The notes beneath the pieces were generated by a model. It ran no database searches. It was not told the DNA's origin and saw only the letters and a list, made by a program, of their open reading frames with translations. This document shows, piece by piece, positions 12,946 through 59,777 of a stretch of 64,000 nucleotides of DNA. Location of the stretch: positions 7,316,001-7,380,000 of the forward strand of contig BTRK01000003.1 in assembly GCA_036245805.1 (NCBI GenBank). The letters are read 5' to 3'. Source of the DNA: Pristionchus mayeri (taxonomy: Eukaryota > Nematoda > Chromadorea > Rhabditida > Neodiplogasteridae). The first letter of the stretch is position 1; each line of letters begins with the position of its first letter. The translations under genes and the position numbers were made by a program.

Positions 12946-13778
12946 CGCATGAAGAGAAGTGAGACGAGAACGAGGGAAAAGGCGCACAAGACTATCGACT
13001 TCTGCCCCTCGCCTCTCTCCTCTATGTCCCCTAGGGAGAAATCTCCTACTCTGGAGCGCCGAGGTGGAGTTCATCCGGGAGGAATTGGAAGCTAACCGTG
13101 AATAGAGCTCCCTAATCTCTCACTCTTGGCTGTTTGTAGGAAGAGAACATGAATTGCTGATTGCGATTTCGTTCCCGGAGTAAGAACATCGTGCCGTTCA
13201 CTATGTAAATCTAACCCCCCTCTTACTCTTTCTCCTCGCTCCATAACATTCATTCGTATCACGCTCACTTGATCTCCCTCTGTGCTTTCACTCGGCACAC
13301 AATTATTGTATGCTCCTGATTTGTCACACCCCTCTCATTCTCCCTCTCCCAGAATCTCCAACGAACACTCAGGCGCATAGTCACGTCTCGTCCCCCCTAA
13401 TTTACATCCCTTACATATATTTCCATCTCTTCCCTTATCTTCCATTTTATGAATATCACTGCTGACCTTCGAATCCTCGTACTCATATACGTTCCTCTCA
13501 CCGATGCCCCATGCGCCAATGATGGGTGTAGTAGATGTTTTCACGATTTTCTTCAAAATAAGTATCTTGTTTTACGCAGAGTGAAATCATCTGGACTTTC
13601 AGTGATCTACTCTCACTCTCACATTTTGGATTGATGATAAATCGACAATTTACACGCATAATCGGCAGCTAAAATATTAGCAGCATATGCCAGGTATTTA
13701 TTGAAAATGGGCGGGGCTTGAGCTCTCCCACTTTACAGTTTGTAGTAGTAGTTGTACTCTGAACTCTAATCAATAATA
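12946..13778. other. No supported gene
   Basis: C/T-rich intergenic sequence with a copy of the TTCAGTG-TCTACTC-CACTC module near 13598-13620. No exon chain is visible. Confidence 0.5.
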
Positions 13779-15573
13779 TTAGGTTGGTAAGAAAGTTCTG
13801 TCGCGTAATATTTTTCCATTTTTTCTTGACTGAATAAATTGTCTGGAAATTCAATTTAACATAAGTTGAAGTGATGTAAGTAGTATACATCAACAGGTTT
13901 AAGTCGATTATATTTCGCTTATAAAGCGAGTAAATAAATACAATCTCAAAAATTCGGAAAATGACGATTTTATGGGGTTATTTGTTGAACTCAGCCGTTT
14001 GAATAAGAGCTACCAATTGCTTCTACTACTTTGAAGGGTGATAACATCAGAGTTGTACATCCATAATATCACATAACATCCGGCATTCGATATGCGTGTT
14101 AAGCTGCAGATTGAAAAACAGGCTGATTTCAAACAACAATTTTCGGTTTCATCCTTTGAAAAAGTGTAGCTCACGAACAGTTTGGTGCACCACTGCCCAA
14201 TTTAAGGTAAACAGTAATCATGCCGAGTACTTCACTACTCACTACAATTGAGCTTACTGTATCAATCGCTAAATCTTCAGGGATGAGAAATGCTTATCAA
14301 CAAAATTCAATTCAGTTAAATTTTCAGAATTAGCGCTGATCCCAAGTTGGCATAATGGGGCGTTATTATTATTAGGTTGTCTCAAAAGTTTCTGACTATT
14401 TATTTTTTCAAGTTTGCTCTTGTCACCATCGGATGCTTCAATTTTCCTTTTAGCCCGAGTTAGGGTCTTTGTAGTGTAATACTACCATGCATTGAAATCT
14501 AAACTCTGATGCGTGGTATGAGAGAAATGAATTATTTTTGCCGAAAGGTCGAAATATGCATATTTTTGGCGCATTTTGCTGATGATGAATTCTCGAATAG
14601 GATTGCCCTGTTGATTCCGCCTGGCAAATGAGGGATAGGTCAAGGACTAATTGTTCAGATAACCTCGTAAAAATACGGAAATCAATGCTTGCTTGGAACG
14701 GGAGATTGTGAAAATGGCATATTTTAATGCTTGAGATTCGACTTCCACATTTCGATACGCTAAACTCAGTAACGGATCGTTCAAATATCTACTAATTCTA
14801 GTCATATATTTATTGGGGAAAGTACTTCACAAATCACCGCAAATGAGCTATCTCGGGTCCTCAACACAAATCCATGATCTATTGATGCTGCTTCGTGAAT
14901 TACCAGCATGTGTAGTTTTCAGATTGTGCGCACCCTATATACGTGGATATAACAGCACATCTATCAAATGTGACTCGTTAATAACATGTTGGGAGCACTT
15001 CACAGAAGTGTATTAAATTTGCACCTCACACGGTTTTCCGAAGAATTTTGAACCTTTGAAAAAGGTTAGTCCCTTTGCCATCTCGTTGAATTTAAGAGTT
15101 AATGGCGAGAATCTTACGAGCTCTTTAGGACTGATGTTATGTGCGCTAGATAGAGAACCCAAGCCTATATATGGTCGAAAACCAAAAGCAAATCGGTCAC
15201 CATCCAAGGACAGGACAGGTGAAAACATGAAAAAATGAAAATAGTCAGAAACTTTTGAGACAACCTAATATTATGCAATAAAAAACATGCCCTCTTGTTG
15301 TACTTTACAATAGCATGTTAGTTATGTCCATATCACATTTCTTCTTTCAACCATGAACAAATAAAAATATGGTTGTTAATCAATTTCGCTGAATTTGGCA
15401 GTCGACTATGTCAGAATTCGTAATTGGAGAATATTGTGATAACGTTTCCTCGAAAGATTAACCAAGCACTATTAGACGACTGAAGATCGTATGAAGATTG
15501 ATCAACTTTGAAGGGCAGGATAAACCAAAATGAAAAATACGAGAAACGCGACAGAACTTTCTTACCAACCTAA
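13779..15573. mobile_element. Mariner-type non-autonomous element (outer)
   Basis: Perfect 27-bp terminal inverted repeats begin TTAGGTTGGTAAGAAAGTTC and are flanked by TA at 13777-13778 and 15574-15575, the Tc1/mariner signature. No transposase frame or D,D34D motif is readable. It is interrupted by a second element at 14372-15268; without that insert it is about 0.9 kb. Confidence 0.9.
14372..15268. mobile_element. Mariner-type non-autonomous element (inner, nested)
   Basis: Perfect 30-bp terminal inverted repeats begin TTAGGTTGTCTCAAAAGTTT, with TA at 14370-14371 and 15269-15270. Its 897 bp have no transposase motif. The first bases of its termini match the outer element (TTAGGTTG), so the two are related subfamilies. 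It inserted after the outer element. Confidence 0.9.
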
Positions 15574-17962
15574 TATCTTTGAATATGCATTTTATTTATT
15601 TTTAAATTTGAATGCAAACAATTCAAATTAAGTGCAAACGGGTACTCCAAGGATGACTCCAATGAAAACAGTGACGCCGGAAAACATCAGTCGGGGTTTT
15701 TTTTTCCACGAACACATTCAAAAGGCGATATCAAACAAATTATTTTAAAATTATAACGACATGACTGCTGATAAATTAGTATAGTAGACGGGGCATTTCC
15801 GTCAACACATTCAATAGGGGATATTGGAGAAGCCTTAGCATGACGGTTCCCGTCCACATAAGAACCTCTCATGAACACCTCCACACATCTCCTTCCTCTC
15901 TCGTATTCATTTCGTACGAATAGATTTTACATTACATCTAACTAGGCTTTTATTTCGCCGACTGTATTTTATTCTGGTCAAATGCTGTTTCATTACAGGG
16001 TCCGTCATGGAAGTAAACTGCCCAGTTTTGAGTCAAGTTGTACAGGCCCTATGGAGAGCGAAGATTGGAGATGCAATGGTGAGAAGTTCAGTTCGAAATT
16101 CGGGTCAATATGACTTTCTGACGTTGTAAATTTTGGTATTAAATTTGTACATTTTCTAATTTTGTTGTAAATTATGTACTTTCGCTGAGGAGAAGGGTAT
16201 GAGAATCTAGAGCAATTTAAATTGTAGTTTACTCATTTCTTTTACTACAGGGCGCTGTTTCGTAGGCGTTTAATGGCTCCCGGAGGAGCATGAGAGATCG
16301 TGGGAACCATTAAGCAACATCAGAGTTAGTTAAGAATGATTATCTGCGCTTAATAAATGTTTAGAAAGGCGACCCGAACCAAAAATCGCAACCTAAAATA
16401 AGACACGTGAATATGAGCCCAATACTGAAAAAAGGAGCTCCGTAAAAAGCATGGCATTGATGTAGAAACGTGAGTTTCCCGCCCGGAGTAACACCAACGT
16501 TCAAATTCAGGCTCTGAGTCTCCTCCTCTTATTCTCCTCCTCGTCCTTCCCTCCTTATCCATTTCGATTCTTCTTCTCACTCCACGTCATATTGTATAGA
16601 TGTTCGATAATAATAATAATATAAGAGAGGCCGTCCGAGAGAATTTGCCATAGGCCGTACAGTGAAAAATGAAATTCCTCCTAGAATTGTCCCAAGGGGT
16701 AACTATTCACGTAGAGTTCGAAAATCGACCTTATAAAGCCGTACCTCCAACCGCTCATTTTCTTTGTCGCACTGCTGATGGGCGGTCGGTTTTTGTACTC
16801 GAACGGCGTCTCCAAACCCCATAATTATATAGATATTCTAAAAGATCTCGACGAGATAAGCATTTTTACTGTTGGCAGTGACAGGCTAGCTCATTTGTGA
16901 AAAATGTTCGTTTGAATGGTTCAAAAAATCGTCCTAAATCTGTATGCCATACTTATACGCTTTTTTTATTGTTTCATTCGATTCCTCGTGGAAAAGTACC
17001 CCTAGGGTATTTTTTTGAAGGGAAATTTCGTTCCTGATGGGGGTCGGCCAAGTTATGAATGGGTAAAGTAGAAAAAGAAAATGGGAAAAGACGGAATGGG
17101 AAAACATTATCGTCTCTCTCTATCTTTTCTCTCTCCCATGACATGCCTTCCATAACGCTCACAACAGGAAAGATAAAGGTGGAAGGGTGAGGATAAGTTA
17201 TTGTGTGAATTAAGTAGTGTAAAGATGGATCAAATACCACTACATACCATGATTTAACAACACCTGGAGAAATGTAATCGAAATGCTCATTTAAACTCGG
17301 AAGTGTCCAGTCTTTCTCACTTGTACAGTGCGGTCTTTTCCAATTTTGGATAAAAATATTAATGATGTTTTCTAGACACATTACATTACTGCTCTCACAT
17401 TGTTAATCGTTAAATATTATTGTAAAGTTATTATAAATAGTATTAGCGATAAAGTAATTGTAATTTTTAGCCAATGATGTACAATGGGACGAATATTTAT
17501 GAAACAGATGTGATTATAGTGTGTTAAATGAGTAAGAAATAATTTGTATATGTCATTTTGACTTTCTTCCCTCGTTCAGTTCCTAGCCCTGACGTGAACT
17601 CGATTGCGTCTCCTCGGTCGAGGCGTCGTCTGAAGAGAAGTAATTGATACGGAATTTCGAATATTTGCAGCAAGTACAAGTGTCCTAATTAGTTTTCACG
17701 GTTTAAATAAATCATTTGGAAAGGGGGAGTCAGTAGCGGCATGTGCGTATCAAATATGGTAGCGGTATGAAATCTTCGTAAGGAATCGTTTGAATTATGC
17801 TAGTGTAAACTGAATCTTCTAAATTTCGATTTCAGTCGTTAGAGTTTATTAGCCCACGCTTGGTAATATCACTTTCATCGAAAAGTGGCTCCAAGTTTGG
17901 ACTGCTGATCATAACGATGTATTTCTAGTGTGAGCATAAATGTGAATCTCTTAGGTACAATC
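15574..17962. other. No supported gene; contains a diverged foldback arm
   Basis: Apart from the repeat at about 16620-17060, I see no gene. GA/CT-rich patches and short frames only. Confidence 0.5.
16620..17060 (+). repeat. Diverged single arm of the 23.4-kb foldback family
   Basis: Shares, in the same order, GGCCGTACAG, CACGTAGAGTTCGAAAAT, AAAGCCGTA, CTCGACGAGATA, GCATTTTTACTGTT and GCTAGCTCA with the left arm of the inverted repeat at 23389-25417. Only one arm is present, and it is visibly more diverged than those two arms are from each other. Confidence 0.75.
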
Positions 17963-18057
17963 GAGCAATTGCCTGACTCCCTTCAGTTTGTACGCTCTCT
18001 CGTATCTCTATCCGATGAGAGAGAGTGTGCGCTTTTGAGAGAGTAAGACCATTGTGC
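17963..18057. mobile_element. MITE, GAGCAAT family, 8-bp target duplication
   Basis: Imperfect hairpin with GAGCAATTGCCTGACTC at the left and its inverse at the right. Flanks are GTACAATC (17955-17962) and ATACAATC (18058-18065), a 7/8 match. It lies about 370 bp beyond the 3' end of the EEP gene. Confidence 0.7.
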
Positions 18058-18430
18058 ATACAATCTAAGTTCGCACCTCACCACCACGTTCCTCTTCGAA
18101 TCCATGGATTATCTCAGCCTCGCAATGAGGATATGGGATTCGGAGGATATCACGACCATGTCTCTGAAAGTATTTTTAATTAGCTAAAGTGATCCCAGAA
18201 GAATGAGCACGCAAATTTATTGCGTGCCTTCTCATAAATAAGTAATAAATGATACTGTTAGATGCATTTTTTTGTTTTTTTCTTCCTTTCGACAAATTTA
18301 CGAACATTTATGTAGACAGGATCAACTGGTTTTGTTCGCACAGCGCCCTCAGTAGAAGTCGGCAGATCCTTTAAAGAGAAGATAATTTTGTCTATGTTGT
18401 CTGATCTTTTAAAATCAGACTTTTAATATC

Positions 18431-22002: not shown

Positions 22003-23388
22003 GCAAAGACACCTTCTCGAGAGAGCAGAGAGATTTTACGAAATCGAAACTCCGATTTTCGAATCAGTTCCCTTTCAGTAACAATATGAATCACAAACAA
22101 TTTAAATGGCCAGAATACAACGTCGTTGCAAAGAGTTTGCGGAGAAAGGAAATGAGGGGCGAATTGTTTCATGATTCACATTCAATGCTGTTCTCTATCT
22201 CTCCAAAATTTGTTTTGTCTATATCAAATGCCATTTCATTCCCTGAAATGGAAATGAATACGAGAAAGTAATGCCAAATATAGTCCACGACGAAGAGTTA
22301 CGCTATGGTCTTGAAAGTCATTGAGCATGATAAGAGGCGCGAATATCAGCGAACATCAGAATTGGGAAATACAGTCTGAACAGACCTGTTCGTCGCGCGA
22401 GTTCGGAATGATTAGGAATGACAAAAAAAATTGCTTTCTGGGACTCTGAGAGTCCCCAATTTGAAATGCGCGTCAAGCTTAACAATGCGATGGAACAATA
22501 TTCAAAGTTCGGACACTCGGCGTCTGAGAGTCTCATGCAGTTCGTATCATTCGGAGTCTCATATTATTCGTATCATGATGTGTATCAATCGGGCTATCAA
22601 TCTGCTACTCAAACAGGAGACAGTGTGTTACACATCTTGATAAGTGAATTGCTAGAACGCGATAAATCATGGGAGAATGAAAAGCGCAGGAACACAGATG
22701 ATGAGAATAGGAAGAACAGGATGAGTGAAAGAGAGGGCCGCCAATGCGAAATACATGCGGTAAGTGCACATCCAGACCACTGGTCCTCACTCTCTTCCCC
22801 TCCCATCGCTCACACTCAGTGTAATACACACTATCATCGTTCCTCTCGAATCTATCTTATCTTTATTCACTACTGACATCTTCCCTTCGTTCTTTCTCTC
22901 CGATGTGTTGATAAATGAGTACGTTTTGAGTTTTTCGTTCAGAAATTTCGCAGTCTTCCTATTTTCTACTCTGGCAGCTCCCTCCCCATATTCAATATTT
23001 TTTCCCTCCCTCTCAGTCTGTCGATACAGCAGCTGCACCTAGCAATTTAGCAGCAGCTAATTATCTATCCTGAGTAGTCTTACAGACTTCAGTTCACGTT
23101 CATGAAATGACACTAACAGTTTGTTATTGTTTGTTATGATTATTCGCATCAGAATAAGTTTCACGTCATCCTAAAGTGATTGTCGAACATGGTGTGATCG
23201 ATAAGTCATCCATTGCTATCGCTCGTAAACTAAATCGACTTGTAAATCGAAAATTACAGTTTGATTCTATTACATCTCAACGATTTGCTGATTACCTTTC
23301 ACATTTATAGATTGTTTCAACCTAACATTTTATCAGTGGTCTACTCTCACTCGAATATTAACGTGATGTCAATACGAAATTCTATGGT
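22003..23388. other. No supported gene
   Basis: Short frames on both strands without motifs or splice partners. A copy of the TTCAGTGG module is at about 23334-23355, directly left of the next foldback. Confidence 0.5.
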
Positions 23389-30540: not shown

Positions 30541-33500
30541 TTTCTCTCTTATTATCTCTAGGTTGCATTCCTCAAAACCGTGGATATGCAAATTGAGGAA
30601 TACAATTACAATGTACGAACTAATGGTAGCACTGAAATGGTTTGCAGATAGAATAGTGATAACATTCGCACAGTCTCGGAACACCATGAGCTGGAAGAAA
30701 TTGTAGGGATTGAAATGAGTGCAATAGTGTTGCCAGCCGGCTCTCCTAATTCAGAGTGCTATCAACGATCAGCCAGAGCTACAGCGCGCGTGGAACGAGG
30801 AACTCAGTCACTTCTTATTTGCCAACTCAGTACCATTTCCCGAGGAGGCATATATGCATGGAATGGCCATAACTAATACTTCGCTAATTAGTTGAGGCAA
30901 TGTTTATACTGGTCTACGTACTGATATGTTTTGCGTTTTCTCTGTCTCACTCAAAAACACTTTTACTTATCTCATTCTCTTCCACAATTATTCACTGTTT
31001 TACACTGTGATATAATATAATATTTGTTTTAGTGGCCTACTCCCACTTGCATATTGGTGCAAATTGTTCAAACTTCAACATTTGGGGGGGGGGATAATTA
31101 TTTTATTCGATCGATGATTCGTTTTATCACGTTGTCAATCGCCTAACAAAGGATAGACGATTGAACCATTCGCCTAGTTATTGCATTATCCGATCCGTCA
31201 ATCCCCAGGCGGTCTCTAGCAATTACTCATAATGTTAAAGAAGGAGTAACACAAACAATTAATTCAGGCTGCCGTCCATGGAAGTGATAGAAATCAGCAA
31301 TCCAATTCTGAATCATTTTATCCAAAGTTCTATGGACGACTCTCAGACTGTTTACGTACGCGCAAACTTCATTGAACGTCTTTAACGTGATTTTTACCAG
31401 TTTGCTTAAATTTTTGGCAAACTTCCTTTGAATCAAACAGTAAAGCTCCAAATCCAAGGTCGCGTCCTCGACAAAAAAAAAATCCAAGGTCGCGTCCTCG
31501 TTTTGCTTCCATAATCCTCGGCCAAATTTCGGAACTCGTAAAATACGTGCGCCGTCTCCTTCCGTACAGCGATAAATATCTCCCGCGTCAGAAGTCGAGA
31601 GACAATTGCTTATTTGTTGAGCTGTGTTGTAAATTTCACATTCACAATGTAACTGTCTTTATCTTTGCTCGAGATTTTTCAGAAGATTCCCATAACATAT
31701 GTGATATTAGCCAACTGTGAATACATGTTGAATATTTAAATATGCGTCAACTACAATTAAATTGAATACAATTAAATTAGTAACGTTTCCTTACACACCC
31801 TACAAATCGATATTTATTGAGATATATACATCGCACCTGGAGGGTTCGGGTATATTAAGTGATATTCCACGGTCCTTTCTCACACTAGATTTATATGGTA
31901 AGCACGCTTCTTTAGATCATGTTGTTGCAATGAATATTTTTAAGGACTGTCAAGGTGGAATGGACGGTGATAATGCGAGTACGACATCATATCAATGGAT
32001 TTTATGGACTGTTCACCATTCGCCTTTGTTCGAATTATTATTATTTTTTTTTAAAAATTGTGATAAAGTGATCGTGTTTCCGTTATTTTATAGCATGTCG
32101 TGTAATACTAGTATCTGTTGAAAGAATATGCTTCTCATTAAATTACACTACTGGGGTGCTCCGGGGAATGTTTAGTCACCCATAGTGACAGTGTGGATAT
32201 TTTAGAGGCAATTCACCAGATCAGAAATCACTTTGTTCGAACTTCCAAAGGCGTTTCTGAGGCTACTTACATACGCGCAAAGTTCACTGAAAGGTCAGGG
32301 ACGTGACTGTTTCAGTTATGTTTCACTCGCTCAGCATAATAATCGCATCTTTCTAGTGGTAAATTCGGTGCAGTTTCCCACTGAGAGCGCAGAATTTTCG
32401 TGGAGGGACTCCCTAGTATTTATTTCCCGGAGCACTCCTTTAAGTATGCGTTTTTTTCACTCGCGAACGCCAAAAGCAGATAATCGCTTCTTCGTTTCTT
32501 CCTTAGCGCGAAATGGTAAAATCGGCGCTCTTTTTCGTAAATTTAGTTTCATCCAAAAAATATGAGTATACAGAGAAAAAAACTGGAAGAAATAAAAATA
32601 TCGGAGTGTCTGATCTCTAATTCTTGGTTTTTGGGAGCTGAAGTGTCTGCGTCCTCTATGCGTGCCCTTCCCTTCGACTCAATTCAATTTTTCGTTCTTC
32701 ATTACATCTCCCTGTCTTCACTCTCTATCCCCTCACACTCTCTATCTCGCGCCGGATCTTGCCACTGCGTCTCGTCCACCCAGTGTAAGCAATTCATCTT
32801 TCCCATCGCCTTTACTTTTCCTCCACCCTGGAGAGGGAGACGATGAAGAGAGAGGGAAAAGGGCATTCGCGTCTAACGATTTAAAAAAAAAACAAATCCC
32901 TTCTTAAGCGCAATTTATTCACGACACCAGCTCCATTGGCAATTTGTCCTTCTCGCCTCTTCCCTTTTCTTCTCCAAAACGCCTATTTCTTCGCCTCCTC
33001 CCTCTCGCTTTCTCTTTATCTCGCTATATCTATATTTCTTACTCTCTCTCCACAGCAATGTATTCGCCCCCCTTCTTCCCCTCCATATCGATCAAGCAAC
33101 TAGTGGTTCTGGCAATGTTTCGCACACTTTGTTTTTACGTGTACGCTTTCTTATACGTTCTTTTACGCTTCCGTGTTCGCGATATCTTGAATATCTTCCA
33201 CTAAAAAAATTGTTCGTTATTTTACACTGAGAGTCGCCAGTATTTCTTTCAGTGGACTACTCCCACTCGTCTTGGTCGAGGTCAATTCGCAATAAACGGA
33301 TATACAAAAGTGGTATGATGTATTGCAAGCTCTCGGACATTTAGCAAAATTGACCGTTTTTAACGGCTCCAAATCATTATCTCCAAATAATTTGGAGCGA
33401 TCAATTAAAAAAGAAATTGGTAAATAATACATTTCTTCGATATCGCTCAGAAGCTCCCTTTACAAAGCCGGGAAAGTACGATCATCTCGACGAACACAAC

Positions 33501-37724: not shown

Positions 37725-37917
37725 GGCACTAGGTCGGATGATCACCGTCGGATGATAACATACTGGATGATAACCAAAAAAATGAACCCTTCTGTAGAAC
37801 TTTCACAGAATCATTTTTTGGCAAATTGGGAATCTACTGAAAGTTCTACATAATGGTCCATTTTTTGGTTATCATCCAGTAGGTTACCATTCGACGGTGA
37901 TCATCCGACCTAGAGCC
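37725..37917. mobile_element. MITE, GGCACTAGG family
   Basis: 193 bp with GGCACTAGGTCGGATGATCA at the left and near-inverse TGATCATCCGACCTAGAGCC at the right. Target duplication ACCTTTTC (37717-37724) / ACTTTTTC (37918-37925), 7/8. The right flank runs directly into a TTCAGTGG module copy. Confidence 0.85.
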
Positions 37918-37925
37918 ACTTTTTC

Positions 37926-39988
37926 AGTGGTCTACTCCCACTCGAGTATACACTTGACGCCAAATTCGATCACGTACTTCAATGAAGCAACTACCACGAA
38001 CACCAGTAAGCATTGTTGTGAAACTCCCATGTCTTCATTATTTTGATCGCATTAAATTTCAAAATTGAATATTTAGTTTGGTAGGATGTGGAAACAACCA
38101 TAGAGCAATAGAATGAAAATTACAATTACGATGTAACAAAATTGTAGAATATTATATCATATTTCAGAACGAACACGATAAAATATCAAGATCGAAATCA
38201 TCCGACGGGGTGAGATATATTTTTGCCTGGTTTTTTTTGTCGAAAAAAAGTATTCTAAGACAACATATTTTGTGACATGAATTATCTTTCAAAAAGAAAA
38301 ATACAATTCAGATTGCGGCACGGCATCACACGACTACTTCAAATTGTGTATAAATGGGAAGTTCTTATGCGCGTAGATCAGCAAGCGTAGCGCCGATAAC
38401 TTCGAAGAAGTGTTCCCCCGGCGGCCGCTTACGTGCGAGCTTCTGCAAGAATATTTGATGATATTTCCATGAAAATGTACACAAATTGGATAAATTACAT
38501 TTCGATTCTACTTTCTACATTCTACAGTTCTACATGTTCGAGTTCGATTCTACATGAATTCATTTCTCGTACACACATGTAATACATGAATGGGTGAATG
38601 AAAGCTTCATTGTAATGGAATAGAGAGGCATGTGAAGGAGATGGATTGAGATTGGTTCGAGGTCATTTGTCTCACTCTACATGGGCCATTTGGGAAGCAA
38701 CAATGCACGCCATGTGGTGCTTTCTCCACCTCCGTTTCATTTCGTTCCCTAGTGTCTCAATATGAACCTTTGACGGGATATGCCATTTCAAGTGTTTCGA
38801 GTGTATTGCCAATATGTTGTTCTTTCTCCCCCACCTTCTTTCTTTCCCCTTTCTTGCATCACTCGTCTTGACAGTGATGGGTTAAAGGGGAAATAATTTC
38901 TCTCATAGTTTTTTTTTTTAATTTCAAGTCTGAATCACTTGATTCATTAGGATACCAGTTTATGGATCACCGCAGTGATTTGTGATGAGAAACGCTCTTA
39001 ATTTCGCTAAAACTTGATTCTTTCCGTAGTTATCGCGTTGCTTCGCACTTAGAGCGATAATCGATATTTTAAGTGGTATACTCTCATTCGACGTTGATGT
39101 GATATCAGTTTGGCACATTCCACATCTTCAACAAACGATTAGGTAGTGGATAGTTGCTACCATATGGTTCTCAGAGTTTTATTTTCTCTTAGAATCTAGA
39201 TCTTTCTTCCAGGTATCTTCTTTAGACTGACCAAATGAAAGTAATGGTGTGAGGGAACATTAACGAACATTAACGAACCACCAACAGCCAATGTTGATCA
39301 GGTCTTTAACTTCCGATCCCGATGATTTCTTCTCCAAAAAACGTATTTTCGAAATACGTAGCTTGTTTGTGTATTTTCGAAATACGTAGTTTTGTATGTA
39401 CGTAAAGTAAAACAAAAAGGTTTCAGCATGAATTAAATAGTAATTCATTTATGGCTAACGATAGCTGACATGATTTAGGAAAAGTAGCCGTAGGAAAACG
39501 AGGTTACGAAATCAAATGAGCGAAAAAGGTTAAGTTATTGAATGAATTCAGGCAATTATCGTCATATTGACAATCTTCCGCAACGCCACGGTCGAATTCT
39601 AAATTACGTTGACTTTCCTCTCATAAATGGCAACGGATTAACGCGAGAAGCTATTGTAAGGCTTTTTTATCATGTAGAAAATGTAAAATGCATGCAAGCG
39701 AAGGTGGAAGATGCAATTCAGGCTATTCACAACCTCGAAATATTCATCAGTTCCACTCCAGGCCAATCGAAGACCAATCACGTCGAGTTATCTAACCTGC
39801 ACCAACATATGCACATCTACGTTCCGTTATGATGGCTTCCCATTGTTGTAGTCATTATCATTATGAAGCTTATGGTTTGTATGCTAATATGTGTTATCTA
39901 ATTATGAAATATGCATATCACTCTGTAAAGGAGTAGTAAAGGCAATCCCTAGAAAAAGTGGCATTTACCCGACGTGTAAATTCTACAC
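37926..39988. other. Mostly no supported gene; one unexplained ORF
   Basis: The module copy at 37922-37944 and another at 39068-39092 are the only recognisable repeats. The only frame worth keeping is at 39542. Confidence 0.45.
39542..39832 (+). CDS. Unrecognised ORF, 96 residues
   Basis: ATG to TGA without interruption in a region where other frames are short. The text is balanced in composition (RHGRILNYVDFPLINGNG, then a helix-like stretch KVEDAIQAIHNLEIF). I do not recognise it; there is no signal peptide, membrane segment or known motif, and no splice partner. It may be a chance ORF or a decayed gene fragment. Confidence 0.2.
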   Translation: MNSGNYRHIDNLPQRHGRILNYVDFPLINGNGLTREAIVRLFYHVENVKCMQAKVEDAIQAIHNLEIFISSTPGQSKTNHVELSNLHQHMHIYVPL

Positions 39989-40235: not shown

Positions 40236-40946
40236 ATTCAACAATTATTCGTTAAACACATCCCGATTTATCGATCGAATTCATTTTTGTTCAGAAGCAG
40301 TATGAAACCGACGATTTCCCATTCATATTCAGAGAGAAAAATGAGAGTTTCAGATTTTAATTTCTGAAAGCCGTCCTTCATAATTCCTTGTTGCACCAAA
40401 TGAAATAAATGAGTGGATTAAATGCTAGGATCGTGAGGATTTATGAAAGAAGATGATGCAGAAGAAGGGATAGTCTCTCACTCCTAATCTGTTACAGCCG
40501 GACCCAGTGTAAGCAATAAATCTGTCTTCCCTCCCAGCCTTCCCTCCTTCATCATCTTGCTTACGGGCTAAAACGACGAGTGTTTCGTGTGCATCCTGTC
40601 CCTCTATCTCGCTATGCCTTCAGCATCATGTTAAATATCGCACTAGCCTCATCATAAGGTCCAGAACATGTTGAGAAATGTAGTTCCGTATTCAATTCAT
40701 CATTTATATTTTATTTCCCATAATATCATCTTCCATTCCCTTCATCCCCCCCCACTCTCGTTTCCCGCCGATCGATCGGGTACTGCAATAATTTGGCCCC
40801 CGCTTTGACAAAATATCAATGATATCTTCAAATACGTTACATCAGAAGCTGACAATTTTCCAATTGATCGGATATAAATGTGATTACGTTTGTAATGTCA
40901 TCATTGTATTAACACGTGTATTCACTGATATCATGCCATTTTTCAG

Positions 40947-41028
40947 TGGTCTACTCCCACTCGAATATTATTTGCTTCAGATGCAAATTCAAGCGACTAC
41001 ATTCTACGAAAAATTCACGAAAAATGAG
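40947..41028 (+). repeat. Exon-like cassette copy (TGGTCTACTCCCACTCG module)
   Basis: Preceded by a consensus-quality acceptor (CCATTTTTCAG), starts TGGTCTACTCCCACTCGAAT, ends AAAAATGAG and is followed by GTAGTG. The same block with the same kind of borders occurs at 53311-53397 and 59695-59777. Confidence 0.65.
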
Positions 41029-43729: not shown

Positions 43730-44424
43730 CTGATTCCACTATACAATTTCTGAGTTGTGATGTTATTTCCACATACTGTTTTTACTACATCCTTCTTCTT
43801 GTCAGATCAGCTTTTTCGCAACAGTGTAGTTCGTGGGACTAAGCGATACTCAGGCATTAGGTCGGATCAGAACTATGACCCCATGAAATTTTTGATAGGA
43901 TCTAGTACCGACACTCATGTCACACCTGCTGCACTGCTCTGCTTATCGATTCGTCGTCGTCGGCGTCCATCTCGACGATGACGAGACGAGGGTCGGAGAT
44001 CGAAAGGAGCTCAGCAGACTTGGACAGACTACGAGTAGTCGCGAACACATTAGCGACCTGAGAATCACAGAGTCAAGGAAAGTTATGAGGCAAATTCATC
44101 TTCATCGTATTATGCAAATTAATAGCATGCCAATTAGGAGGGTTATAGCAAAAAAATAACACCGATCTCATGCATACCTGACGATTCTTGAGCAACTCAT
44201 GCACTAGTCCCAGTCCGATGCCTCGGTTTCCTCCGGTTAGCACCACGTTCTTGGACATTGTTGATAGCTGAAAAGAACTAGCGACCGTCGGTCGCTACGT
44301 GGTTCGCGGGCTTGTGTTTTAAGGATAACAATTGGACGCGACTGGTGAGAGCCTGCTTAAAACGTTGTAAAAGGCTCGTGAGGCCTCGGGCAATTCGAAA
44401 AAGTTGGGATGGGGCTTCGCCCCA

Positions 44425-45449
44425 TGATTTTGAAGCGAGTTAGAGCCATTTGAAGAAAAAGATCAAACTACAAACTACAAAGATCAAACTTTAAAAGCGC
44501 TCGCCATGGGGTGCCAACGGTCAAGGGCCTATCCTTCTACGATTATTTTGAAGCGCGAGTTAGAGCAATTTGAAGAAAAATATCAAACTACAAACTACAA
44601 AGATCAAAGATCAAACTTTAAAAGCGCTCGCCATGGGGATGCCAACTGTCAAGGTCCTATCCTTCTACGATGATTTTGAAGCGAGTTAGAGCCATTTGAA
44701 GAAAAAGATCAAACTACAAACTACAAAGATCAAAGATCAAACTTTAAAAGCGCTCGCCATGGGATGCCAACGGTCAAGGTCCTATCCTTCTACGATGATT
44801 TTGAAGCGAGTTAGAGCCATTTGAAGAAAAAGATCAAACTACAAACTACAAAGATCAAATATCAAACTTTAAAAGCGCTCGCCATGGGGATGCCAACGGT
44901 CAAGGTCCTATCCTTCTACGATGATTTTGAAGCGAGTTAGAGCGATTTGAAGAAAAAGATCAAACTACAAACTACAAAGATCAAAAATCAAACTTTAAAA
45001 GCGCTCGACGTCGGAATACCAACGGTCAAGGTCCGACGTCACACGGACGTGTTTGAGCTAAGCTAGAGCGATTTGAAGAAAAAGATCAAAGATCAAAGAT
45101 CAAAGATCAAGTTTAAAATTTTAGAAGTGCGCATCGTGGGGATGCCAACGGTCAAGGTCGTAGCTCTGTAGGACGTGTTTGAGCAAAGCTAGAGCGATTT
45201 GAAGAAAGAGATCAAAGATCAAGTGTCAAATTTTTAAAGTGTTCATCGCGGGGATGCCAATGGTCAAGGTCCGAAGTCGCACGGATACGTTTGAGCCGAG
45301 TTAGAGTCATTTGAAGGAAAAGATAAAACTACAAACTACAAAGATCAAAGATCAAATGTTGAAAGCGCTCGTCAAGGGTTTTCATATGGTCAAGGTCTTA
45401 GGCACATAGGATGATTTTGAGGCGAATTAGAGCGATTTGAAGAAAAAGC
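44425..45449. repeat. Minisatellite, about nine units of roughly 112-128 bp
   Basis: Units begin TGATTTTGAAGCGAGTTAGA and contain GATCAAACTACAAACTACAA and GCGCTCGCCATGGGGATG. Starts are near 44429, 44541, 44670, 44796, 44920, 45045, 45170, 45285 and 45412. The first units are near-identical; the distal ones (from about 45030) are more diverged. It lies between the ATG of SDR copy A and its promoter. Confidence 0.92.
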
Positions 45450-50905: not shown

Positions 50906-51039
50906 TGTTGTCGGGTGGTAGACGGGGAGAGAGGAGACGAGGCGGGGTGGGTCACGCGCGCTAGGATATGCTTTTTTATAGGTTAGCGACAGAAATTGCG
51001 ATCAAGGAAGCTTCTAGGAGTTTGAGACGATTGCAATAT

Positions 51040-52529: not shown

Positions 52530-53285
52530 CAAGGGAACCGCAAAAGTATACCTTACAACCAGTGAAATTCGTTTTTACAGGATTCAAGGGACCCCTAACA
52601 AGATCCTATAACCGTGCTGAAAAGTTGCGAATATTGTTTCCTAAGACCCTAAAATGACGTAAACTTTGCTTTCACTATTCCCAGAATAGTGAATGATTTC
52701 GAGAGTAGTAAGAGAAAGTACCCCGTAGCTCAGCAGGTTGCGCGTTAGCTTTGCTTATTCCAAGTTGTCGGTTCGAACATTCTGCAGCAAGAGCTTTTAG
52801 CGGATTTTTACAAATGCTCTTTGTTTATCATATGATTAACTTCTGATCTAAGTCTCTACTTTGATCACAGTTTCAATCATAAAGCAGTTGTAAAAATCCG
52901 CAAAAAGCTCTTGCTGCAGACAGAGTTCGAACCGACAACTTGCAAAATACAAAGCTAACGCGCAACCTGCCTGGCTACCTGGCTAAGACCCTAAAATGAC
53001 GTAAAATTTGCTTTCCCAGAATAGTGAATGATTTCGAGAGTAGTACGAGAAAGTACCCCGTAGCTGGCTACTTCACCGAATTACTCTCGAAATCATTCAC
53101 TATTCTGGGAATCTGCGAAAGCAAATTTTAAGTGGTGAACACTCTATTTTTCATAACTTATTTTAGGGTCTTAGGAAACAATATTCGCAACTTTTCAGAA
53201 CGGTTGGAGGATCTTGTTAGGGGTACCTTGAAACATGCGAAAACGAATTTTAATGGTTGTAAGGTATACCTTTGCGGTTCCCTTG
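52530..53285. mobile_element. Foldback element with tRNA-derived arms, 3-bp target duplication
   Basis: Outer ends CAAGGGAACCGCAAAAGTAT and its inverse, flanked by TGA at 52527-52529 and 53286-53288. The paralogous position at about 59671 (GCACTGATCGG) lacks the element. Arms continue inward through a shared TTGCGAATATTGTTTCCTAA into tRNA-like sequence near a short central loop. No transposase. A 3-bp duplication would fit CACTA- or Harbinger-like enzymes, but the termini match neither clearly. Confidence 0.88.
52720..52785 (+). ncRNA. tRNA-derived sequence with Pol III A and B boxes
   Basis: A box TAGCTCAGCAGG at 52726-52737 matches TRGYNNARNNGG exactly; B box GGTTCGAAC at 52770-52778. Acceptor and T-stem pairing are poor, so this is tRNA-derived rather than a working tRNA. 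The inverted arm carries the partner: B box at 52925-52933 (minus), A box degraded at 52966-52979. Confidence 0.65.
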
Positions 53286-53310
53286 TGAGCGGTATTACTA
53301 TATTTTTCAG

Positions 53311-53397
53311 TGGTCTACGCCCACTGAAAAATGTCAATTCGATGTCAATTCTTGATGTCAATTCGAGCTACACGACCTTCAACGAATGAACAATGAG
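53311..53397 (+). repeat. Exon-like cassette copy
   Basis: Acceptor-like TATATTTTTCAG, block starting TGGTCTACGCCCACTG and ending AACAATGAG, then GTGAGA. Contains a small internal repeat of GATGTCAATTC. Confidence 0.6.
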
Positions 53398-54439
53398 GTG
53401 AGAACAATTTTTTTTGATTATTCATTTTGGTTTGACCTGAAAATAGTGAACGATCTAAGGGAATAATGTATTTACGTTGTGGAAAATTTCAAGAAATGAT
53501 GAAGAGAAATGATGAATAAGATAAAATTTAGATATCAAGAAATTATGAAGATAAAGCAAGGGGACTATGCAACGAGGTGCGGATTTTGGCTGTAATTCGA
53601 AATGTGAGGCTACGTCTCTTCATTTTCCACTAGTCCGGCTGCCTTCGGCGGGGGCCCCGTCCTAGCGGAGTATCTAGGTTTCGCAATCACTCGTTTCGCA
53701 ACTTGTTGACGCGATCTCTCTCCCTCCCCATTTCGTAATCGTTTCGCAACTGTTTCGCAATCCGGTCAAACGGACAGACGGACACTGCGCTTTATATATA
53801 GGTATGGATACTGTATCGACTAGTCTAGCGAACATCCGGATTTCGAAGTATATGCTATTTAACCGAATATCGGACATTTCCCGAAACGTGTCCATATATA
53901 CAAATTTCTAAAAAAATGCTCCTACAATCCAGAGTAAATTGCAGATTGATGCATGCTAAAGGGAGAACAATACACGATGCTATCGCAGCTAGTGGGGAGA
54001 ATGCGGTTATATCGATATGGAGTACCGCTACGTGGACAACCGGATGTGAGCGAGTTTTGGAAATGAAGAGGCGGATCTGTCTCTTCATTTTAAATTCAAC
54101 TCCCTATTACTGAAAAATCATAATGTTGAAGATCGGCAAGGATTGTCTCTGATTCATTCCAGACCAGAGAATCAGAGTTGCATGAGCTATAGCGTAATCG
54201 TTCGTTCTTTCGCATAGAGTTTCGTTTCTCATCCGTCATCTTTAAGCTCTTGTCCAGTGTGATAAAGCGGCGTTCCACCTGATGCAAGAGAGCCCCAACA
54301 AGGATCGAGCAAATATCGAGCAGAGTTCCACTCATCCCAATCGTAAGCATCTAAATAAATTGACTTAGTATAAGACTTTGAGTACATTTTATAAGCGGAC
54401 AAATGGGCCTCTTAATTTCGAAAACCCGATCACACTTGT

Positions 54440-54560
54440 CCAGTAAAGGTAGTGTAGGAAAAATAAATACGAATATTTGTATTATGAAATCTAAATTTGA
54501 GGATTGCATAGACGGGTCCGATGACGGCGAGAAAAAACGGCATCATAACATTGTAGTCAT
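54440..54560 (-). other. Possible exon fragment with one hydrophobic segment
   Basis: Minus strand reads MMPFFLAVIGPVYAILKF. The unit-2 counterpart at about 61980-62030 reads CQVVAVVAVIGTVYAVLK. Conservation of the hydrophobic text in both units suggests a coding remnant, but no splice partners are clear. Confidence 0.3.
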
Positions 54561-54822
54561 TGTATTTTTGTATTTTTGCTTGTATCACCTGATTGTATAT
54601 GTTTGTCCTGGATAAATTGATGTGATGTGTGATGTGAACGAAAGCAAGCCATCTTGCAAATCGCTGAATTCACGTGCTTCTTCTTATTCGAATTAATTCA
54701 TCGCTAAAACACTTGCCTGCGTATTTTTCTAGCAATTTATTTTTAACTAGAGAGTTGATAAACATACTTGTTCATTATTTATCCCAAATATTTCCCAGAA
54801 TTAATCATTCTTTCGAATAATT

Positions 54823-57410
54823 TCATATCATTTCTTCCTTGACCGATCGCCAAATCGCCGTGAAGTTGCCGACTACCTCCCAGAACATGATGTTGAGTCG
54901 GTCAGTGGTCAGACCGTAGACTGAAAACAATTTCCTTCAACTCTTCTGGAAATTGACTAGTCTTGGCATTTTAACGCTAGACTTGCATTTGTATGTATTG
55001 TTCAATATATTAACACATAGTGACGTGTAAATACAATGATGTTTCTTGATCAGAAACAAATCAAAACTCACAGTGTGCGATGCAATAGGAGAACAGGAAA
55101 CCCGTGCCGAGTCCTACTATCATATGGCCGTGCCAACCCAGGGCTGAATATTGATTACACCATTTTAATAAAACATTTCGTTGATGTATGTTAATCTCTT
55201 CATTCTTCGCGACCCCCTTAGGTTTGACTTGAGATCGTGAGAATAATCAAATTCTTGCAAACCCATGTATACTCACGAGCATAAAGGAACTCTGCATCTG
55301 ACCCGAAGCGAGCGAGGTCCTCTTCGTCTGCAATGTGTGATCCGGATTAAGTTCTTAATTCGCATTAAAAGAGGACTCCCGTGCTCTCGCACTCATTGTC
55401 TTTGCGTCAGGGTTAATGTTGAATGATTTAATTGAACCACAACTCAATTCTGAATAGAGATTTCAAAATCTCAATTTCGAAAATGAGTTACGGTTTACGA
55501 CTGGCTAGAAACTGCGTTGTCAATTTGTCATGAGTACTTTTCCTGATAGTCTCGCTATAAATATTTACAGCTCTAAACATAACCATCCTGATAATGCCAT
55601 TATTCTGCATCTATAAAAGTCTGAATGAAATGCAGTTCAGATATTGGAAGGAATTACATACTGTTAAACAAAACACCGTGAAAAAGAACGAAAAAACGAC
55701 AAAGACATTCCTCGATCAATTTCAGAAACTGATGCATTAAAAATTATCTCACTCGGGACAATCCCGTGCTCTCTGAAGTAGAACTTGAGGAGTGGATCGA
55801 GATTGTTGACATTGGTCGATCTTCCCTTCGAGCCGCCCTTTGAGGCGCTAGCGGCGGCGAAAACTGAGCAAAATTTTACATTAGGATTACGTGAACCGTT
55901 TCAATTTCTCCTAATTATGAACTCTCTTCTCAAATCATCTCATTATAATTATAAGGTGTGTTTGGTAATTGTTGGCATGGTAGAAGACATGGCGTGAATT
56001 TTCGGCTCCTCCAAGCCAATATTTTTGTTTTCGGCACTTCACGGAATCTAAGGCAGAGATAATTTGTAAAATAATAATATTGTTTTGGTACCTTCACCAC
56101 ACAACTTCGGGGAATTGAGGGGAGAATGAATGCCATCTCCCCTGTCTCTCTACCCTTCTTTCTCCTAGCAGTTGTTAGGAGGAACGCTGTGATGGAGTCC
56201 CCCCCCCTCTTCCTGAGGCGAGTGGGGAAGGATGACGACTCACTCTTCCCTTTTCTGTCCTCTTGCTAGGAGGAACAGCCCGTTTCCCTTGGAGTCCATC
56301 CCTCTCTGAAACCCGGAGAGGGAGAAAGGTGAAGACCTGAAACGACGAGACCTGAAACGACGAGACAAAATGCCACTCTCCAAGGTAATAACATGAATCA
56401 TGTAGTATTCCTTGTTGAAGCAAGCATGCGAGCAAGATGAAACCAGTTGAAACAACTCGCATTCCTCGATGTTCTTCCTCATATACTCCCTTCGCTGCTG
56501 CATTTCCTGCTCAAGTTCTTCTTCGGTAATAGTACGGTCGTACATGGGAATTGGGATTGAGAGGAGAGGATAGATAGTGTAATGGGGGATGGGCTAGCTC
56601 CGCTCTTCCTTCTATTTTTGCCGTTACCAGGAGGAACGGGCGTTTTCGCTAGCCGCCAAAGATACTCATCTCGAAGACACTTTACGCGGGCAGTTGATGA
56701 TATGAGTAATAATTTTGATTGCTAATTTCAGGAACACCACTTTCGATCTCCATTCAATTATCTTTACACCTCTGGAATTACATACAAATACCAACTGCAA
56801 AGTCGGTAAATCTGTGGGACACCCTAATTATTCCACATCTCATCCGCAATAGATGTCCCAAATCACGACTAGGCCGATGCAGATGCCTTGAAATGATTAA
56901 TTTTGATTTTTAATCGTCATTTGCAATCGTCAGCATATCAATATAAGATATCAAGTTATAGTAGGCTCATATTTCGATTAGTATTCAGACTGACCGACGA
57001 GAATATTTCGCGAAACCATTACAAGTTATAATATGATCGCAACTCACATCCCATTATGGAAACAAGTATTCCGCAGGCACAGAGCAGACCAATCGCAGCA
57101 AGGTACGGATTAACGCCCCATTCCTCGTCAACTTTAGTTCCTGGATACATATTTCGTGATAATTATTGCAATAGATACTCACCGAACATAAACACCCCAA
57201 TGAATAAGGCGACCAAGAATGGAGTCAAGTGAAGCGCGCGAGCGAAATTGGACGGTATTTGGTTTCCCCCAACTGTAAATATGATATTAACAGCAGAATT
57301 TCGAAAGAAGAGAGATAATAATCAGGTGGACTTTTCGCCAATTTTCGCGCATGATGTTTCTCGAGCTTCTCCATTACAGGCTCGTCGTCCAAAGTCATAC
57401 AGTCGGCCAT
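54823..57410 (-). CDS. Unrecognised small multi-pass membrane protein (unit-1 copy)
   Basis: Exons: first at 57410, then 57183-57272, 57048-57140, 55753-55863, 55277-55327, 55072-55143, 54823-54920, with every phase matching. The first exon ends either at 57401 (donor GTATGA, product about 174 residues) or at 57332 (donor GTCCAC). Three hydrophobic segments: LHLTPFLVALFIGVFMFG, PYLAAIGLLCACGILVSIMG continuing into the next exon, and HMIVGLGTGFLFSYCIAH. Loops are charged (TKVDEEWG, NEEDLARFGSD). The protein ends NFTAIWRSVKEEMI. I do not recognise the family, so no function is offered. Intron 3 is long (about 1.2 kb) and contains a remnant of the alternative first exon seen in unit 2. The joining of the first three exons to the rest is inferred from phase and membrane continuity. 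Confidence 0.6.
56240..56545 (-). other. Acidic ORF, possible alternative first exon
   Basis: ATG at 56545 begins TITEEELEQEMQQRREYMRK. The frame is open to 56240. A GTGGCA donor after VITLE would join in phase to the exon at 55863. It is just as possible that this is a separate or chance ORF. Confidence 0.3.
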
Positions 57411-57659
57411 GAGTCTCGAAATGACAAAACGAAAGGAAAGGGGAACAACCAAAGGTACTCTTCGTACTCCTTCTCTCACTCTCCATTTGTTGTCAGGAGA
57501 TACAGGGCGTTGTGATGTATCCCAACCCAGGAAACAAAGGGAGAAGTAATACAACTGTACATATTTCGTAATTTCTATGGAATTGGTGTTTACTACATTT
57601 CCAGCTAAATGTTGCAAAAATAATAACAATCAAGAAATGACATGGGCGATTGGGAGTAA

Positions 57660-58083
57660 GTGGAATGCATAGGATTCGAGGATAAGCAGATTAGGAAAAA
57701 CATCAATCCCTTGCATAACTTATACCTTCTCTCAACTGCATTCACTTGTACTATTGGACTTGTATTGCTCATGCAAGGTAAGAACGAAGAAACGGCATGT
57801 ATTTATATTCGGCAATTGCGGTGTGTAACCAAGTTGTCTAGTAAAGTACTCGCAGATTAACATATTAGAAAAAAAGAGTAAATTAGCACGAATCATGTGT
57901 TTCTTCTACTCGTTCATCCGGTACAGGCTCGCGTTTATCAAAGATGCATGTGATGATTCCTGTACACAGATACATTTTCAAAAAAAAGTTTACTGTAATT
58001 CCATTACCGATCACAATGCAGACCACGATACAGAGACATATGCGAATGCCCACTGCCAGAATAGCTGGATGTATGCCGGTTAA
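57660..58083 (+). other. Possible short plus-strand exons, unrecognised
   Basis: A frame from 57660 encodes a hydrophobic stretch (LLSTAFTCTIGLVLLMQ) and meets a strong donor CAAG/GTAAGA at about 57779. An acceptor-like CCGGTACAG is near 57926. No family is recognisable. The first block is copied into the element at 58175. Confidence 0.25.
57717..57807 (+). repeat. Direct repeat, source copy
   Basis: About 90 bp from AACTTATACCTTCTCTCAAC to GGCATGTATTTAT, repeated with a few mismatches at about 58255-58345 inside the neighbouring transposon. Confidence 0.88.
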
Positions 58084-58174
58084 ATCATACGTAAAGACTG
58101 AGGGCTGATTCCAACTGTGGCTCCTCCACCAGAATGAGACAAATGACGAAGAGAGTCATTTCTCGCGAGTCTCA

Positions 58175-59080
58175 ACCATAGTTGCCAACGCCGGCGGCGA
58201 CCCCCATGAACCCCTATTCATGCTGGGGCGCTTCCCCCCTCTATATGAGGGGGGAACTTATACCTTCTCTCAACTGCATTCACTAGTACTATTGGACTTG
58301 TATTGATCATGCAAGGTAAGAACGAAGAAACGGCATGCATTTATGTATATTTATGTACGGCATTTATGTACGGCATGCATTTATGGTCATGGTTAAAAAT
58401 CGATTGGTAGGTCAATATTAGGTCAAGACTAGGTACCGTACCCAATCGATAGTACAGTACCCCAAGATACCGTATACCATTACAGTAACCCACGATTATC
58501 GCAAACTAACTTTATTTTTAAAAAGTCCTGGCACCATATCCAATCGATTATACAGTACCCAACTGACTACCGTAACCAAGTTCGTTGGGTCAGATCCAGT
58601 TCCTTGGGTCAAACATTTTCTAAAAAACCTAAAACGAGGAAAATAATATTTTAAATTATCCTTCCGTATCCTTAATTACTGTAGAGTCATTATGTAATCG
58701 ATTTGGGATTTTTAGAAAAATGTTTGACTTTTTTAGAAAAATGTTTGACCCAAGGAACTGGATCTGACCCAAGGAACTGGGTTACGGTAGTCAGTAAGGT
58801 ACTGTAGAATCGATTGGGCACGGTACCAGGACTTTTTTAAAATAAAGTCAGTTTGCGATAATCGAGGGTTCCGGTAGTGGTATACGGTATCTAAGGGTAC
58901 TGAACTATCGATTGGGTACGGTACCTAGTCTTGACCTAATATTTACCTACCAATCGATTTTTGACCATGACCCCCTACACATGCTGGGGCGCTTCCCCCC
59001 TCATATCGAGGGGGGAAGCGCCCAGCATGCGAGGTTCATGGTCTGAAAATACCTCGCCGCCAGTGTTGGGCAACTATGGT
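58175..59080. mobile_element. Foldback element with ACCATAGTTG termini and a copied insert
   Basis: Ends ACCATAGTTGCC and GGCAACTATGGT, flanked by CTCA on both sides (58171-58174, 59081-59084). Arms share GGTACCGTACCCAATCGATA and CCGTAACC-type repeats with the element in SDR copy A. The right arm has a GC-rich hairpin (about 58979-59028); in the left arm half of it is replaced by about 90 bp matching 57717-57807. Confidence 0.82.
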
Positions 59081-59694
59081 CTCAACCCCACCCTGCATTC
59101 ATGGCCATTTCTCTCATTGTCTTACGGGGCTGCGGGGCTGTGAGAGGGAGAAATGAACGACTAGGCCTTTCTCAAAGCCGTCTCTTTCTTCCCCTCTCTC
59201 TCTCTCTCCCCGAAAGCTGCTCTCAGTGTAATCAATTCGTCCATTCCTTATCATTGTTTCTGTCCCCCCTCAGCATCACTCTTTTCCGGATAATTTTAAC
59301 ACTAGAGTGCATCAGCACACATCTCAATCAGCAGTTGAATTTAACTCAACTTTTAACCCTTTTAACGTATGATGGACAGTACATTTTCGTTTCGTCTTTT
59401 GCACCCCACTTCGTTTCCCAGTACAGAACATTCCATCCTCAAACCTCAATCCCCTCTCCCCCTCCCTTCCCTCCTATAGATCTCGCTCTTTGAGAATGTG
59501 GCCCGCATTCACAAATGAGAAGTTATATCTCTCCCCGAGACGTAATTCAATTTCTCTTGAGGTTATTCCACTATTCTTAAAGTTAACGGTTCGACTTCGC
59601 ATAATATGCATGATTCTATATTCGTTATACCATGATTCTAGCACACGATTAACACATTGTTTTGCACTGATCGGCCCATTATATTATTTTTCAG

Positions 59695-59777
59695 TGGTCT
59701 ACTCCTACTCGACTGCGTTCTTGATGCCAATTCGAACTGTAACACGACCATCTACGAAAATAACCGCGAACAATGAG
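59695..59777 (+). repeat. Exon-like cassette copy
   Basis: ATTATTTTTCAG acceptor-like border, block TGGTCTACTCCTACTCGACT ending AACAATGAG, then GTAATG. One frame is open through the whole block. Confidence 0.65.

Follow-up and report, generated by a model that had tools for sequence, protein, structure and literature searches.

Copies of the element in the window

The DNA analysed here is a 64,000-nucleotide (nt) stretch of the nematode Pristionchus mayeri (assembly GCA_036245805.1, contig BTRK01000003.1, positions 7,316,001 to 7,380,000), hereafter the window, in which a short exon-like block preceded by a splice acceptor recurs on both strands. A first-pass annotation had listed nine forward and three reverse copies of this block. 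When the entire window was searched with the covariance model R1 with filters off, 13 matches were obtained at an expectation value (E) below 0.01, the next match having E = 0.047 and none lying between 0.003 and 0.047. All nine forward copies were recovered, with exon starts at 13603, 23337, 31033, 33253, 37928, 39074, 40947, 53311 and 59695, as were the three reverse ones (8231, 6208 and 3787), and a fourth reverse copy absent from that list was found with its exon start at 1620. Five of the 13 (23337, 37928, 40947, 59695 and 1620) belong to the alignment from which R1 was built and match by construction, and the other eight lie outside it. The two lowest-scoring copies, 13603 (E = 0.0007) and 39074 (E = 0.003), still retain all five stem pairs. 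The forward copies extend from 13.6 to 59.7 kb and the reverse copies from 1.6 to 8.2 kb, forming two arrays that face apart. The boundaries given earlier for three exons that end in AATGAG before GT proved exact.

The copies and the features tied to them are listed below; scores are those of R1, stem pairs are those of the 5-base-pair (bp) hairpin stem, SL1 pairs are those with the spliced leader SL1, and the upstream block is that of the last line.

13592–13624, +: hairpin element with acceptor; exon start 13603; 20.1 bits, E 7e-4; 5/5 stem pairs, the fifth A-T for G-C; 1/3 SL1 pairs
23326–23358, +: hairpin element with acceptor; exon start 23337; 34.7 bits; 5/5 stem pairs
31022–31054, +: hairpin element with acceptor; exon start 31033; 29.4 bits; 5/5 stem pairs; no donor-like GT at 40–130 nt
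33242–33274, +: hairpin element with acceptor; exon start 33253; 24.9 bits; 5/5 stem pairs; upstream block at -472
37917–37949, +: hairpin element with acceptor; exon start 37928; 40.4 bits; 5/5 stem pairs; upstream block at -486
39063–39095, +: hairpin element with acceptor TTTTAAG; exon start 39074; 18.1 bits, E 0.003; 5/5 stem pairs, including two G-U
40936–40968, +: hairpin element with acceptor; exon start 40947; 41.6 bits; 5/5 stem pairs; 3/3 SL1 pairs
40947–41028, +: predicted exon, 82 nt; ends AATGAG, then GTAGTG
53300–53332, +: hairpin element with acceptor; exon start 53311; 30.6 bits; 5/5 stem pairs; the sole window copy folding better with genomic upstream sequence than with SL1
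53311–53397, +: predicted exon, 87 nt; ends AATGAG, then GTGAGA
59684–59716, +: hairpin element with acceptor; exon start 59695; 40.4 bits; 5/5 stem pairs; upstream block at -471
59695–59777, +: predicted exon, 83 nt; ends AATGAG, then GTAATG
1599–1631, -: hairpin element with acceptor; exon start 1620; 34.8 bits; 5/5 stem pairs
3766–3798, -: hairpin element with acceptor; exon start 3787; 30.4 bits; 5/5 stem pairs, the fifth A-T
6187–6219, -: hairpin element with acceptor; exon start 6208; 26.6 bits; 5/5 stem pairs
8210–8242, -: hairpin element with acceptor; exon start 8231; 25.6 bits; 5/5 stem pairs, the fifth A-T; GTGAGT donor 64 nt in
59224–59241, +: block CAGTGTAATCAATTCGTC, 471 nt upstream of exon 59695; similar blocks at 32781, 37442, 40505 and 52129

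Genome-wide copies and extent of the conserved core

The genome searched comprises 291 Mb in 73 contigs, six of which are 40–57 Mb long. The core pattern AGTNGYCTACNCCNACTCGA, with at most one mismatch, gave 116 matches against 3 for the reversed pattern, and a looser pattern that included the acceptor, with at most two mismatches, gave 366 against 21 for the reversed control, which corresponds to about 345 copies. Removal of two near-duplicates from 93 distinct copies left 91, which were used for the conservation, central-pair shuffle and wobble counts. In the 91 copies the information content was high from about -5 to +18 around the first exon base and near background beyond about -5 to +19; the conserved part is ~24 nt long and consists of the acceptor TTTCAG followed by TKGYCTACNCCMACTCRA, the consensus from the first exon base onwards, after TTTC-AG, being T K G Y C T A C N C C M A C T C R A. 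Longer sharing was confined to subgroups, such as the window copies together with a cluster on another chromosome (C4:32.37 Mb), which align to about +45.

The copies are clustered. Among 100 matches listed of the 116, 75 lay in clusters of at least two within 20 kb, 42 lay on one chromosome, and 43 of 50 adjacent neighbour pairs were on the same strand, with a median gap of 3.0 kb (smallest, 773 bp). At C4:35705927–35710554 we observed a tandem repeat of ~1743 bp that carries the element on alternating strands, the forward copies having C-A at the central stem position.

These data bear on the two proposals of the first-pass annotation, which had regarded the block either as a mobile cassette carrying both acceptor and donor or as the core of a larger repeat family. 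Although many copies do present a short exon flanked by an acceptor and donor-like signals, as a ready-made mobile exon would, the common block is only ~24 nt long, the donor falls outside it, exon length varies, and bodies and donors differ outside the related subgroups; moreover, most adjacent copies share a strand, as genes in an array do. We therefore regard a mobile exon as extremely improbable. The outcome that had been named as refuting the idea of an exon, namely splice dinucleotides conserved no more than the rest, was the opposite of what was obtained. The core-of-a-larger-repeat proposal was likewise not supported: strong sharing among the compared copies was restricted to about -5 to +18, with more only in the related subgroups. 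A larger repeat or transposon was rejected in addition on blastn comparison, which detected sharing beyond the core only in clustered neighbours, in related subgroups and in unrelated repeats scattered at a distance from the element, and no shared body with defined ends was found in the 93 of about 345 copies that were compared.

Splice signals and the exon

The earlier suggestion of an exon-like unit with a genuine acceptor was borne out by bases that the searches had not asked for, by a donor peak at +40 to +80 and by a second acceptor downstream. The base before AG was C or T in 86 of the 91 copies and the base two positions further upstream was T in 83, neither position being part of the search pattern; these bases fit the nematode acceptor consensus. 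In a search with TTGYCTACNCCAACTCRA that did not include AG, 32 of 33 exact matches were nevertheless preceded by AG, the exception being locus L086. A TTTCAG-type acceptor, as expected of an exon that accepts SL1 by trans-splicing, is thus in place. Downstream, GTRAG in the sense direction peaked at +40 to +80 (25 matches in 98 copies vs 10 antisense, and 1–2 in every 40-nt bin of the 160 nt that precede the exon) and occurred at +35 to +135 in 37% of copies vs 7–22% in four other 100-nt stretches, and a second TTTCAG was enriched at +120 to +240 (25 sense vs 6 antisense). Splicing at TTTCAG is strongly supported by these signals.

Among 45 exons with an assignable GTRAG donor, an ATG open to the donor was present in 30, against a base-shuffle expectation of 19.1 (standard deviation 3.3) that none of 500 shuffles raised to the observed value. 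Many of the copies thus resemble genuine early exons, frequently ones that hold a start codon. The same excess of open ATGs would be compatible with a conserved protein segment, that is, an exon translated in one frame and conserved at the amino-acid level, in that many exons may hold a start codon. The ATGs counted, however, stand 3' of the element, the reading frame across it soon reaches a stop in several copies read by eye, and changes within the element preserve base pairs, so that such a segment is hardly credible. A conserved-frame coding exon was also rejected on translated comparison of the downstream sequence, which gave only local paralogue or repeat similarity. Simple exon chaining at the 45 loci yielded open reading frames (ORFs) with a mean of 35 amino acids vs 22 for one shuffle per locus, and no family was recognised. 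Host genes of small nucleolar RNAs or microRNAs were considered and rejected, as 4227 Rfam families at the curated gathering score gave no match, whether in the window or in stretches of ~3 kb around copies at 20 loci.

An RNA hairpin in register with the acceptor

The conserved bases can be drawn as the hairpin AGUNG-YCUACNC-CNACU, in which AGUNG pairs with CNACU around the 7-nt loop YCUACNC without a bulge and the AG of the acceptor lies inside the 5-bp stem. All 65 stem cells of the 13 window copies are paired, three copies having A-T for G-C at the fifth pair. The most stringent test of pairing was a search that excluded 5' U and 3' A at the central pair; it returned 17 sites on four chromosomes, all 17 paired (9 C-G, 6 G-C, 1 A-U and 1 G-U), although kin occur among them, for example a near-identical trio (C3:7703549, C4:33715674 and C4:33723223) and, at C4:43.90 and 43.92 Mb, two pairs. 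The central pair was likewise kept in 47 of 49 exact rows among 100 listed matches of the 366 to the looser pattern, and in 89 of the 91 copies, for which shuffling gave a mean of 67 and a maximum of 78, none of 20,000 shuffles reaching the observed count.

Alignment A1, on which R1 is based, retains 65 of the 91 copies; since the 26 dropped were in part look-alikes and in part poorer copies, its figures lean to good copies, a bias from which the 91-copy figures and the U/A-excluding search are free. In A1, 97.8% of stem cells pair (shuffled, 92.0%; slid, no more than 51.1%), the covariation score is 0.211 (shuffled, 0.092; slid, no more than 0.095), and 13 cells are changed on both sides (shuffled, 2.4). 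Compensatory changes of the kind expected of a structured RNA were found at the central pair and, in three window copies, at the fifth. Departures from Watson-Crick pairing in the 91 copies favoured G-U (19 cells) over the mirror A-C (5 cells; p = 0.007, p-values here being optimistic because copies are related within clusters), as expected of pairing in RNA and not of a dyad in DNA. These sequence comparisons give good support to an RNA hairpin tied to splice acceptors. The first-pass annotation had missed this hairpin and its compensatory changes, as well as the complementarity of its outer bases to the spliced leader.

The wobble excess also weighs on a further possibility, that the block is a regulatory DNA motif spread by a mobile element and then co-opted, as in the CERP2/CELE2 promoters of Caenorhabditis considered below. 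The motif is indeed a dyad at the DNA level too, and hundreds of dispersed copies stand at exon-like starts. A DNA dyad, however, would not be expected to favour G-U over A-C or to keep exact register with a splice site, and the compared copies share neither element ends nor a body; we consider this origin very improbable.

Proposed completion of the stem by SL1

The three bases directly after the 5-bp stem, C, R and A, would face G, U and U of SL1 if the leader were joined at the acceptor, and the stem would grow from 5 to 8 bp. SL1 is a 22-nt leader ending in UUUGAG. The genome holds 465 perfect copies of it; in 410 of these GT comes next, as it does in SL RNA genes, and many stand in tandem arrays, including those at C6:45699373 onward and C3:4589719–4604493, with periods of ~650 and 1135 bp. 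Of the perfect copies, 55 are not followed by GT; in the seven that were read (L058–L064), SL1 runs directly into other sequence, some with ATG, and in L059 it is followed by an SL2-like leader and then by ATG. These copies look like retrocopies of trans-spliced mRNAs with the leader kept.

In the genomic sequence, the base opposite the first C, in most copies the C of CAG, fails to pair with it in 90 of the 91 copies. A search with CAGTTGYCTACNCCAACT, which makes no demand on the following bases but sets the genomic C opposite the first of them, found 43 sites, of which 42 were readable (C2:40504976 was excluded). The next three bases pair with G, U and U of SL1 in 41, 38 and 38 of the 42, and in 36, 33 and 33 of the 37 sites with distinct flanks. 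Among all 64 trinucleotides, UUG, that of SL1, fitted best, with 117 of 126 pairs vs 101 for the next best. The position after CRA has no purine bias (28 of 91), so that the match to SL1 ends where the stem ends. Of the 39 possible leader pairs of the window copies, SL1 can make 34 and the genomic bases 21.

Predicted folds were in agreement with this. Over the 93 copies the mean energy was -9.9 kcal/mol with SL1, -7.9 with UUGAG changed to AAGAG, -5.6 with GAG changed to CAG, -5.8 with a made-up exon end AAG, and -4.5 with the genomic upstream sequence, and all eight pairs were formed with SL1 in 63 of the 93. From this complementarity we infer that SL1 is the splice partner, and an SL1-completed hairpin appears to be the best account of the conserved bases.

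The hairpin might instead act in the pre-mRNA, the 5-bp stem with its AG governing use of the 3' splice site, in cis or in trans, and CRA being a mere part of the motif. The acceptor AG does lie inside the stem and in fixed register with the hairpin, and for copy 53311 the genomic upstream sequence gives the better fold. Yet at the position after the stem 39 of the 42 sites have C and 2 have T even though the opposite genomic C cannot pair with it, and the pre-mRNA hairpin is weak on average, at -4.5 kcal/mol. On balance we find action in the pre-mRNA unlikely.

Proposed model

Each copy is probably the 5' end of an early exon, probably the first, in a separate spliced transcription unit. As a weak proposition, transcription might start at a promoter some hundreds of bases upstream. 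The exon would open after TTTCAG with UNG-YCUACNC-CNACUCRA and could fold with the acceptor AG; on trans-splicing, UUGAG of SL1 would supply the outer 5' arm and give an 8-bp stem with a 7-nt loop, the joined mRNA reading ...AAGTTTGAG and, directly after the junction, TKGYCTAC...CACTCRA. If SL1 is used, the hairpin would stand ~18–40 nt from the cap, and only SL1-bearing transcripts would carry the finished cap-proximal structure. By analogy with other cap-proximal hairpins, the most likely use of a hairpin at that place would be in the mature mRNA, where a protein bound to the conserved loop may control translation or stability.

We put the probability of this reading, an SL1-completed cap-proximal hairpin at the 5' end of early exons through which the translation or stability of a few hundred genes in clusters would be controlled, at roughly 55%. 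Somewhat more tentatively, and at a little under even odds, the set may represent a bipartite cis-regulatory RNA built by trans-splicing, in which about 345 units encode most of the hairpin, SL1 provides the rest of the 5' arm, and the whole marks a regulon.

Several observations count against an SL1-completed hairpin. The central cells are unpaired in 2 of the 91 copies and in 2 of the 49 listed exact rows, and three tandem copies among the listed one-mismatch matches have C-A there. In A1 only one of the five pairs shows change on both sides, as in shuffles (463 of 500 reach this), so the both-sided evidence in that alignment rests on the central pair, and the leader pairs are beyond the reach of covariation because SL1 is invariant. 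Copy 53311 folds better with genomic sequence than with SL1, and copy 13603 makes only 1 of 3 leader pairs. A search of the genome for a retrocopy of an SL1-joined element gave eight matches at up to three mismatches, all with CAG and none with GAG, even though retrocopy-like sequences bearing SL1 do exist in the genome. In 45 of 101 exons a GTRAG donor was assignable within 160 nt, the donor of the other 56 being weaker or absent there, and Pfam found no domain above cut-off in 10 downstream ORFs.

Why one leader is placed on most nematode mRNAs, and whether its sequence matters beyond the cap, is a long-standing question. If the hairpin is completed as proposed, SL1 would be a functional component of a gene-specific regulatory element, and more than a neutral carrier of the cap, and transcripts with the leader-completed hairpin would offer a direct gene-specific test of the role of the leader sequence, in its last five bases. 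The set of elements would also provide a handle on possibly co-regulated genes with no recognised domain.

Relation to known systems

The iron-responsive element is a cap-proximal, protein-bound hairpin with a bulged C and a CAGUGN loop. The present element resembles it in its short stem, conserved loop and, if SL1 is used, nearness to the cap; it differs in lacking the bulged C, in having YCUACNC in place of CAGUGN, and in that another RNA would contribute part of the stem. SL1 RNA has a 5' stem of its own; here it would supply the outer 5' arm, the element being encoded in the recipient exon and not in an SL RNA gene.

On marginally trans-spliced mRNAs of Caenorhabditis elegans, 5'-terminal hairpins have been described whose local self-complementarity mimics the leader (Bernard et al., 2023; PMC9984361). 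Those hairpins share with ours the position at the 5' end of a nematode mRNA and a relation to the leader, whereas ours is one shared motif at a splice acceptor that the leader itself would complete. The germline promoters CERP2/CELE2, regulated by HIM-17, contain m1m2 DNA motifs 10–30 bp apart, many of them within inverted-repeat transposons (Sci Adv, 2022; PMC9757741). They too are short motifs present in hundreds of places on the 5' side of nematode genes; the present element, in contrast, keeps acceptor register, shows RNA covariation and shows no transposon flanks, and this lack of repeat flanks in the copies compared speaks against its being a promoter of that kind. The parts of these two papers that were consulted describe no shared hairpin of a leader-receiving exon. 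Six strings of the element had no match in the open-access literature searched, a search that left many subscription papers and other nematode genomes outside, and a topic search of the open-access literature, mostly at the level of listings, returned no description of such an element.

Sequence upstream of the copies

The first-pass annotation had placed TTTTACACTGA about 30 bp upstream of most copies. With at most two mismatches within 60 nt it was present at 4 of the 13 (13603, 31033, 33253 and 59695) and with three at 23337 and 40947, so that the earlier placement holds only in part; in the 91-copy set it was not conserved, positions around -30 carrying less than 0.2 bits each. At 53311 it has been displaced by an insertion at 52530–53285, and rejoining the flanks returns it to ~30 nt upstream. 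This insertion, of 756 bp, carries long inverted repeats at its ends (CAAGGGAACCGCAAA...) and is accompanied by duplication of the 3 bp TGA.

The upstream block CAGTGTAATCAATTCGTC may possibly be part of a promoter. A CAGTGTAAKCAATTCGTC-like sequence lies 442–486 nt before exons 33253, 37928, 40947 (with 4 mismatches) and 59695, and at -1182 of 53311, or about -430 when the 756-bp insertion is discounted. A promoter or downstream motif common to all copies was rejected, CAGTGTAAKCAATTCGTC being found only in these five window copies; other words were limited to low-complexity runs upstream and to acceptor-like and low-complexity words downstream. In 40 copies, pyrimidine runs of at least 16 numbered 23 in the 600 nt upstream vs 8 in the 1000 nt downstream, and purine runs 12 vs 5; as both are richer upstream, the region is of low complexity on both strands, and the pyrimidine runs could be taken as a weak sign of a promoter and outron.

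Other features of the window

Between the divergent arrays, at 9956–12716 on the forward strand, Pfam detected endonuclease and reverse transcriptase ORFs in two frames, of the type of a retrotransposon that lacks long terminal repeats. A mariner-like transposase fragment (Pfam Transposase_1 and DDE_3) occupies 60198–60824 on the reverse strand, and at locus L018 an ORF that resembles it closely is found downstream of the copy. A tandem array of about eight 126-bp units extends from 44424 to 45448, and a direct duplicate of ~1.3 kb, 92% identical, is found at 54843–56108 and 62472–63715.

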